Shown in pieces: positions 57,603 to 59,484 of a stretch of DNA of 64,000 nucleotides. The notes beneath the pieces are model-generated. The model was not told where the DNA came from and searched no databases. It was given only the letters and a program-made list of their open reading frames with translations. This DNA is from Tumebacillus sp. BK434. GTDB taxonomy: Bacteria > Bacillota > Bacilli > Tumebacillales > Tumebacillaceae. Both the position numbers and the translations under genes were made by a program. The stretch covers positions 591,689-655,688 of the forward strand of contig NZ_SLXS01000003.1 of NCBI RefSeq assembly GCF_004340785.1, written 5' to 3'. How positions within the stretch are numbered: position 1 is the stretch's first letter; each line of letters begins with the position of its first letter.

Positions 57603-57881
57603 TTGGTTACAATACCTCACAACCTGAATTTTCCACTGGAACAAAGTGGATCTTTTGCTCATTCGTCCTGCCAGTACACTCAACTTAACCAGATTGATCA
57701 CGCATCTTTTCTTGATGACCTGACGCAGATGGTCGAGAGAATCCCCGCGCGAATCCTCACTGCTTCTGTAAACAAGGAGGAGCTCTGCAAAAAAGCGTTA
57801 AATATGCTGAACCAAGGTCTGTCCAAGATTCGATCAGGACTGGCCTTTTTGTCCATTCAGGCATCCCAACATCCCGCCTAA
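57603..57881 (+). other. Unsupported open frame in a gene-poor stretch
   Basis: The 386-base gap between the VanW-like gene and the pro-peptide holds a 92-codon frame (TTG start, no RBS). Its C-terminal half (SVNKEELCKKALNMLNQGL) looks protein-like, but a terminator-like hairpin (GGTCTGTCC/GGACTGGCC then T5, about 57825-57850) lies inside the frame. It may be the relic of a gene. Confidence 0.3.
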
Positions 57882-57930: not shown

Positions 57931-58086
57931 TTACTTGGTTTGTGCCAACGGATCTGGATCGAAAATGTTCGGTTTCACAACCAAGGGATCCGGATCAAAA
58001 ATTTTGGCGGATGCAGCAGATCCTGCAACTGCCTGTGTTGCGAAAATTGCGACAAACAGCAAGGCAAGTACTCCATACTTCTTCAT
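57931..58086 (-). CDS. Secreted 51-residue pro-peptide with duplicated heptapeptide (candidate pheromone)
   Basis: A signal peptide (MKKYGVLALLFVAIFATQAVAGSAA) is followed by a short tail in which IFDPDPL occurs twice, separated by VVKPN. The two copies are identical in protein but use partly different codons (ATTTTTGATCCGGATCCC... and ATTTTCGATCCAGATCCG...), so selection acts on the peptide. The ATG overlaps the regulator stop by four bases (ATGA), with GAGGGG upstream. Position and layout match pheromone genes of the RRNPP family (Phr, NprX, PapR, AimP). The mature signal is predicted to be a heptapeptide around IFDPDPL, taken back up by an oligopeptide permease. Too short for standard annotation. 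Confidence 0.85.
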   Translation of the reverse strand: MKKYGVLALLFVAIFATQAVAGSAASAKIFDPDPLVVKPNIFDPDPLAQTK

Positions 58087-59372
58087 AGAACAATACCCCT
58101 CTCTTCTAATATCAGCCGGCTGTAGCCCCGAACTTCCTTCGTGATGCCAAATGCGCGCTTGTAATCGTCCGCTTCGAGGTACAACTCAGCAAGATCATAC
58201 ATCGTGTCATCCCATTCGGTGATCGCATCCATGTGCTTGAAGCAGTCAGCCGCCATCTGATACCGGCGGATCGCTTCGTCACGCTGATTGCGTGCTTTGG
58301 CGATCTGTCCGTGAATGCGATTGATCCACCCTTGATACATATGCAGTTCGGGCAGCCAGCCGCGGGCATCACGGCACAGCTCCGCTGCTCTTTGCAAATC
58401 CCCCTGCTGCAATCGAAGTTTTGCGAGTTCGACGATCGCCATCCCCATCTCTTCCTTCTGCCCCAGTTCCTTGAGTTTAGCGATCCCCTGCTCCAGCATC
58501 GCTTCCGCTTCTTCAACCATTCCCTTGTCTGCTTGAAGAACTGCGCACGTCACTTGGAGCTTGACCGTCATCAGCACATTGTCCAATCCATTAAAAATGG
58601 CTGTGGCGCGCTCCGAATAGTCCGAGGCTTTCTCCAGATCATTCAGACGTTTGTACGACATCCCAAGTCCCATGTAGACATGACCGATCTCGTACAAACT
58701 CCCCACCGACTCATACAAGCCCGACGCCCCATTATAATAATCGAGCGCTTCGGTCAAGTTGCCCAGCTTCGAGTGCACCAGCCCCAGATTAAACAAAATG
58801 CTCGCCTTCAAAAATACGTCCTGCTCTTCCATCTTGTCCGCTTCTTCCAGGCCCTTGTGCCACTGGTACGCGGCGAGCTGGTAGCGTTTGCGGCGGAATT
58901 CGACGAGGCCGATGTTTTTCAGGGTGAGGGCCTGTTGCTGGTGGTCCTGGCGGAGGATCGACAGCTCGTACACTTGGTTGAACAGCTTCTCCGCTTCGGG
59001 CAGCTGGCCGGTGTGGAGGTAGCAGTCGGCCAGCTCAAACATGATGTCCATCGTCGAGATCTGGGTGCGCGGCGTCTCCAGCAGCTCTTTTAGCAGCGGG
59101 ATCGCCGAACTGTGCTCTTTGGCCGCCACCATCGCGCGCGCCATCTTGTAGGTGCTCACATACTCCAGATTCAGGTCGACATCTGACAGCAGCTTCTCAA
59201 GCGGCACCTCGAGCCTTTCTGCAACTGCGAAAAGAATCTTGTACGACGGCCGCGCCCGATCGGACTCGATCTGGGAGATCATGCTCGGTGTGCAAAGTCC
59301 TTTTGCCAGGTCAATCTGGGTGATTCCTTTCTTCATGCGCAACTCTCGAATGCGCTGCCCAAGGGAAAACAT
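58083..59372 (-). CDS. RRNPP-type regulator (HTH plus TPR repeats)
   Basis: A 429-residue cytoplasmic protein with an XRE-type helix-turn-helix (about 6-60: LGQRIRELRMKKGITQIDLAKGLCTPSMISQIESDRARPS) and then about eight TPR-like repeats. This is the layout of PlcR, NprR and AimR: transcription factors that bind a re-imported peptide in the TPR groove. Length matches NprR. ATG at 59372 is chosen after AGGTGG; ATG at 59390 has no RBS. The gene directly following, with a four-base overlap, encodes a secreted peptide with a repeated heptapeptide, its likely ligand. Target genes not visible; autoregulation is suggested by repeats in its promoter. Confidence 0.9.
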   Translation of the reverse strand: MFSLGQRIRELRMKKGITQIDLAKGLCTPSMISQIESDRARPSYKILFAVAERLEVPLEKLLSDVDLNLEYVSTYKMARAMVAAKEHSSAIPLLKELLETPRTQISTMDIMFELADCYLHTGQLPEAEKLFNQVYELSILRQDHQQQALTLKNIGLVEFRRKRYQLAAYQWHKGLEEADKMEEQDVFLKASILFNLGLVHSKLGNLTEALDYYNGASGLYESVGSLYEIGHVYMGLGMSYKRLNDLEKASDYSERATAIFNGLDNVLMTVKLQVTCAVLQADKGMVEEAEAMLEQGIAKLKELGQKEEMGMAIVELAKLRLQQGDLQRAAELCRDARGWLPELHMYQGWINRIHGQIAKARNQRDEAIRRYQMAADCFKHMDAITEWDDTMYDLAELYLEADDYKRAFGITKEVRGYSRLILEERGIVL

Positions 59373-59414
59373 TTGCAATCCACCTGCCATTTCTATTTTA
59401 TCTTATCTGCTTAG

Positions 59415-59484
59415 ATTATACAATAGGAGAATTAATTTGTCCATAAAGACTTTACTATCATTTTATGTTTAAAGCTAATTTGTC
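59415..59484 (-). promoter_or_regulatory. Promoter of the RRNPP regulator with direct repeats
   Basis: On the minus strand TGGACA (59438-59443) and TATAAT (59415-59420) are 17 bases apart. The nonamer GACAAATTA occurs twice (59433-59441 over the -35, and 59476-59484), 43 bases apart (four helical turns). Candidate binding sites for the regulator itself. Confidence 0.6.

Follow-up and report, generated by a model that had tools for sequence, protein, structure and literature searches.

A probable RRNPP-type quorum-sensing pair with a duplicated heptapeptide in Tumebacillus, and its variation in copy number between related species

A stretch of 64,000 nucleotides from Tumebacillus sp. BK434 (hereafter, the window) carries what we read, with a probability of about 0.88, as an RRNPP-type peptide quorum-sensing operon. 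It consists of a gene for an HTH-TPR receptor and an overlapping gene for a secreted propeptide that holds the heptapeptide IFDPDPL twice (Table 1). Judged from sequence, the pair is very probably functional, of the RRNPP type and equipped with a duplicated pheromone; also very probably, it is one of dozens in the family, and its signal differs from species to species in both copy number and sequence. The assignment is strongly supported because the peptide core is conserved, secreted ORFs lie downstream of receptors far above background, these ORFs contain repeats, and a [DEGI]P[LMH] motif is shared among them.

Table 1. Features of the receptor–propeptide locus, in window coordinates
Feature	Position	Strand	Basis and remarks
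Promoter TGGACA-N17-TATAAT with conserved spacer TTCTCCTATTG	59415..59443	minus	Alignment of seven orthologous upstream regions
HTH-TPR receptor (RRNPP-type)	58083..59372	minus	429 aa counted from the conserved ATG (MFSLGQR)
HTH_3 DNA-binding domain	59190..59351	minus	Pfam PF01381 (E 2.2e-13), covering residues 14-67 in the 435-aa reading
TPR superhelix with about nine helix pairs, presumably the groove that binds the peptide	58131..59165	minus	Pfam TPR families, AlphaFold2 model, fold comparison
Pre-propeptide gene, 51 aa	57931..58086	minus	Start shares ATGA with the receptor stop; orthologous genes in three further genomes
Sec-type signal sequence, residues 1-27	58006..58086	minus	Basic N-terminus and hydrophobic core (hydropathy rule)
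Pheromone copy 1, IFDPDPL, residues 29-35	57982..58002	minus	ATT TTT GAT CCG GAT CCC TTG
Pheromone copy 2, IFDPDPL, residues 41-47	57946..57966	minus	ATT TTC GAT CCA GAT CCG TTG

The longest ORF of the receptor comprises 435 aa from a start at position 59390 that is not conserved. The ATG of MFSLGQR at 59372, by contrast, lies behind GGCAGGTG or a near variant in six of six relatives and is the conserved start; we therefore delimited the gene from this codon, whose position is also the end coordinate given in the earlier reading. Several Pfam TPR models scored above the cut-off, and the AlphaFold2 model of the protein (pLDDT 70.6) places helices at residues 76-419, corresponding to about nine TPR helix pairs. 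RRNPP receptors span 250-500 aa and contain TPRs and, except for Rap, an N-terminal HTH, which is also what we found here (429-435 aa, HTH_3 and TPRs). Fold comparison of the same model retrieved NprR (5dbk, Z 22.7) and RapJ (4gyo, Z 21.7) along with unrelated TPR proteins at equal scores; LGN, TONSOKU and other TPR proteins rank as high, and the structural match does not point to NprR in particular. Many TPR proteins bind things other than pheromones. As a single sequence, the receptor matched one sole RRNPP protein in the PDB, PlcR (2qfc, E 1.9e-8), through its HTH part; NprR was not matched by the receptor alone (phmmer, E 0.001) and was reached only via a profile, the search with which returned PlcR, NprR and Rap structures. 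A phage collection contained no match to the receptor and IMG/VR no relative of it, and the plasmid collection yielded only Priestia HTH-TPR proteins with 24-26% identity.

The nine-TPR architecture resembles that of NprR and Rap, as would be expected of a receptor that acts mainly on another protein, such as Spo0F, and not on DNA; NprR itself has both activities (PMC9765709). For the window receptor we regard such a role as unlikely, given that its HTH_3 domain is intact and nearly identical across orthologues. With respect to the Tumebacillus avium orthologue, the receptor shows 0.40 synonymous differences per site and 0.03 amino-acid differences.

The receptor stop and the propeptide start share the tetranucleotide ATGA at 58083-58086, which corroborates the four-base overlap between an HTH-TPR regulator and a 51-residue secreted peptide proposed in an earlier, sequence-only reading of this DNA. 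Adjacent propeptide genes of RRNPP systems encode 10-100 aa, a range that includes the product found here. Its N-terminus, MKK followed by a hydrophobic core, is of the Sec type by the hydropathy rule, and cleavage of the signal peptide at the predicted site, after A-S-A, is probable. In its domains, the order and sizes of its genes and its signal sequence, the pair fits the RRNPP definition used by RRNPP_detector (PMC10075063), in agreement with the likeness to known pairs in layout, size and signal peptide that had been claimed before. The partly different codons of the two IFDPDPL copies, likewise noticed earlier, amount to three synonymous and zero amino-acid differences within a repeat unit of 12 residues. 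That all three differences are synonymous suggests that both copies are kept.

None of 500 shuffles of the mature part of the propeptide reached an equal self-match (p<=0.002), and comparison with the T. avium propeptide over 47 codons gave a pS of 0.46 and a pN of 0.14. The ORF is coding and, by these sequence ratios, under purifying constraint. Short ORFs are common and the peptide lacks any match in Pfam, NCBIfam and PHROG, both of which would suit a chance ORF with a chance repeat; we nonetheless rejected this explanation as extremely improbable on the basis of the repeat shuffling, of pN being below pS, and of the start, ribosome-binding site (RBS), overlap, signal and core being kept in four genomes. 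A tblastn search of the plasmid collection with the propeptide returned no match. On the opposite, plus strand, a 92-aa ORF that adjoins the propeptide gene (57603-57881) has no counterpart at the T. avium locus and is probably not a gene.

We compared the locus in seven genomes of the family, namely that of the window, two congeneric ones and four further members of the family. In all of them tex is the gene upstream of the receptor, which can therefore be followed by position; the downstream neighbours differ, and only the window and T. avium have a VanW-family gene at that place. An overlapping propeptide gene follows the tex-linked receptor in four of the seven genomes, one of them of another genus, and in these four genomes of two genera the start overlap, RBS, hydrophobic signal and a core F-x-PDP-[L/E] are kept. 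The identical pair of the window compares with three diverged copies in T. avium AR23208 (G002; IFYPDPL, IFDPDPE and FDPDPL; receptor 95% identical), which bear both L and E endings, and with single copies in G001 (IFWPDPE; receptor 81%) and in G005, the genome of the other genus (VFWPDPL; receptor 70%), each of which has one of these endings. Mature RRNPP pheromones are usually C-terminal in the propeptide, and the single copy of G005, being C-terminal, shows where the likely mature peptide ends. Conservation of the repeat among relatives, on which the sequence-only reading had made its proposal depend, therefore holds for the motif but not for the duplication, as copy number changes from genome to genome (2, 3, 1 and 1).

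In the three other genomes (G003, G004 and G006; receptor 55-58% identical), no propeptide gene was found after the tex-linked receptor, and an unrelated secreted protein starts ~130 to 200 bases past it. Homologous regulators devoid of the peptide gene, named beforehand as grounds for refutation, thus make up three of the seven tex-linked cases, with the overlapping gene present in the other four, and the receptor may therefore also act without a propeptide or with another peptide. What stands of the proposed RRNPP pair with a duplicated pheromone are the domains, the core conserved in four genomes and the dozens of similar pairs; neither the peptide gene nor its duplication is universal.

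The early proposal that two copies would double the yield of signal competes with a different explanation, to which we give even odds: the two copies may be a passing stage of pheromone diversification, with gain and loss of tandem 12-residue units, divergence of the copies and a receptor that follows suit. A model of this kind has already been proposed for Rap-Phr (PMC5199041), and it agrees with the changing copy number beside receptors that are 95, 81 and 70% identical, as well as with a T. avium propeptide in which all copies differ and the endings found singly in G005 and G001 coexist. The purely synonymous divergence of the window copies speaks against it, as do the identical repeats that are common in the receptor-linked propeptide family. 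Because four natural alleles exist, the role of duplicated pheromones, be it yield, added specificity or a step of code change, is directly testable. What makes the locus valuable is this natural allelic series (one, two and three copies; L and E ends), which can be traced across two genera next to receptors that are closely related, along with the large repertoire of related systems.

Along the established RRNPP path, the propeptide is exported by Sec and cleaved, proteases release the pheromone, a permease imports it, and its binding to the TPR groove changes DNA binding. For the window pair, we infer export, processing, import and binding, as well as the sign and targets of regulation. Receptor and pre-propeptide would probably be co-transcribed and translationally coupled, the propeptide would leave the cell by Sec with a signal peptidase cut near A-S-A, and extracellular proteases would then free a pheromone of six or seven residues, FDPDPL or IFDPDPL, twice from each propeptide. 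Re-import would be carried out by an oligopeptide permease, for which any of the eight SBP_bac_5 oligopeptide-binding proteins encoded in the genome could serve. Within the TPR groove, the pheromone would alter how the HTH domain binds DNA, at the very least, most likely, at the conserved promoter of the receptor itself. The promoter spacer TTCTCCTATTG is conserved out to G006 and partly beyond in the alignment of upstream regions, and each of three Tumebacillus genomes contains the 17-mer TTCTCCTATTGTATAAT exactly once, at this promoter. The footprint is a possible autoregulatory site with a putative operator role; further copies of it were sought, and no conserved second site was found.

The NprX-type pheromone is SKPDIVG, from which the motif of the window had been set apart at first sight. 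F-x-PDP-[L/E] is the core in all four orthologous propeptides; the peptide argues against NprR-NprX proper, and for this reason we did not file the pair as such. It is otherwise like this system of the Bacillus cereus group in combining an HTH and nine-TPR receptor with a propeptide directly downstream in which repeats are common (PMC9765709). With PlcR-PapR it shares an HTH-TPR transcription factor, but PlcR has five TPRs and about 290 residues, and the PapR peptide is of the LPFEF type. The phage systems Rap3T-Phr3T and Rap105-Phr105 of Bacillus also hold identical or diverged copies in one propeptide, with both Phr products active (PMC11343458), whereas Rap lacks a DNA-binding HTH and Phr pheromones are of the RRGHTA, SRGHTS and ERPVGT types. 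A report of repeated pheromones dates from 2016 (PMC5199041). In 2022 they were quantified, with as many as six copies and with repeats in 17 of 17 large NprR (NprX) propeptides (PMC9765709), and a study of 2024 tested two Rap systems and found the copies to be active (PMC11343458). Duplication in RRNPP systems is hence already known, as in Phr105 and NprX variants, and the window pair, with two identical copies beside the three diverged ones of T. avium, adds another case.

The wider family was collected with a profile built from 14 receptors, which gave 29-59 matches per genome, fragments included, when run on the seven genomes. The 260 fetched loci provided 239 receptor readings and, once duplicates and near-identical copies had been removed, about 216 in the family, with 24-50 receptors collected per genome. 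The Alo systems (AloR-AloP) of Paenibacillus polymyxa are comparable in that many paralogous HTH-TPR receptors occur per genome, most of them with a 32-50 aa ORF directly downstream, and Alo13 responds transcriptionally to a synthetic peptide (PMC7425212); they differ in peptides such as SHGRGG, in divergent TPRs and in their number, 16 loci in strain ATCC 842. Downstream propeptides, defined as small ORFs with a Sec-type N-terminus and a ribosome site that start between -12 and +40 bases of the stop codon, were found at 76 of the ~216 receptors versus 4 of 2030 opposite-strand control windows (0.2%), and one of the 76 (L111) resembles an ordinary small protein more than a propeptide. The four-base overlap with the receptor stop recurs in 37 of these 76 pairs. 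In 27 the propeptide is internally repeated to a significant degree, with two to five copies; examples are L012 with four copies of FIHDAEPL, L069 with five of FINGGEPLSPK and L019 with two of QYEPGIPM. The longest repeats seen, in L012, L094 and L069, consist of four or five copies of either FIHDAEPL or FINGGEPLSPK. The motif [DEGI]P[LMH] is present in 38 of the 76 propeptides versus 6.2 expected by shuffling, a count that is descriptive and not a test because the motif was picked after the peptides were seen.

In the receptor tree, the large clade that includes the window group has hardly any downstream propeptides outside this group. Upstream propeptides were detected at 25 of the 124 loci with enough DNA versus one on the control strand, such as VAETIPIGG twice before L108 and SWSTPEPLGI before L077; a few of the 25 belong to the upstream receptor or look like chance. 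Orphan status of the sister receptors was rejected, as a wider scan showed upstream propeptides at many of them. The switch between downstream and upstream layouts has moderate support in the tree. Sec-type propeptide genes lie ~310 to 160 bases before the receptor start at L049, L102, L106, L108, L112, L059, L035 and others, and the upstream propeptides of sister receptors contain related cores (IPPDP, VPPTPL and TIPIGG), some of them repeated.

These upstream genes, together with the three tex-linked orthologues that lack a peptide gene, would also accord with the small secreted protein being an effector, such as an antimicrobial or cell-surface peptide, under the control of a receptor that listens to another peptide. 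We consider this quite improbable, since conservation is confined to a very short acidic, proline-rich core, which fits the role of a bound ligand, and since this peptide grammar is common to dozens of receptor-linked propeptides, so often with the stop overlap. Returning to the pheromone reading, Tumebacillus stands out as unusually rich in receptor-propeptide systems. There is, in our estimate, an even chance that its family holds a very large private signalling network, with dozens of HTH-TPR receptors per genome and with propeptides downstream or upstream that are often repeated and obey one proline-acid grammar, approximately x-[DGP]-P-[DEGIT]-P-[LM]. Within such a network, the tex-linked window locus would be a code in change, with one to three copies, D/Y/W and L/E pherotypes, receptors 70-95% identical, and two pherotypes in one T. 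avium propeptide. Neither the peptide code nor the large repertoire of Tumebacillus appears to be reported in the literature that we found, in which no paper names Tumebacillus with RRNPP or prints FDPDPL or FWPDPL; the RRNPP_detector data set includes related families, and the T. avium pair may be among its entries.

HTH-TPR receptors frequently occur in back-to-back pairs, 180-260 bases apart, as at G000:C2:726730-729571, at G000:C4:52917-55680 and at six places in G002. In both G000 pairs, a propeptide lies downstream of one receptor, whereas its partner, which is related to the window receptor, lacks one. A separate receptor clade, with a single member per genome in all seven (L006, L085, L157, L127, L131, L132 and L110), has a secreted peptide 250-310 bases downstream that bears the motif WW[TNS]-x-x-[EG]PN, repeated in six of them.
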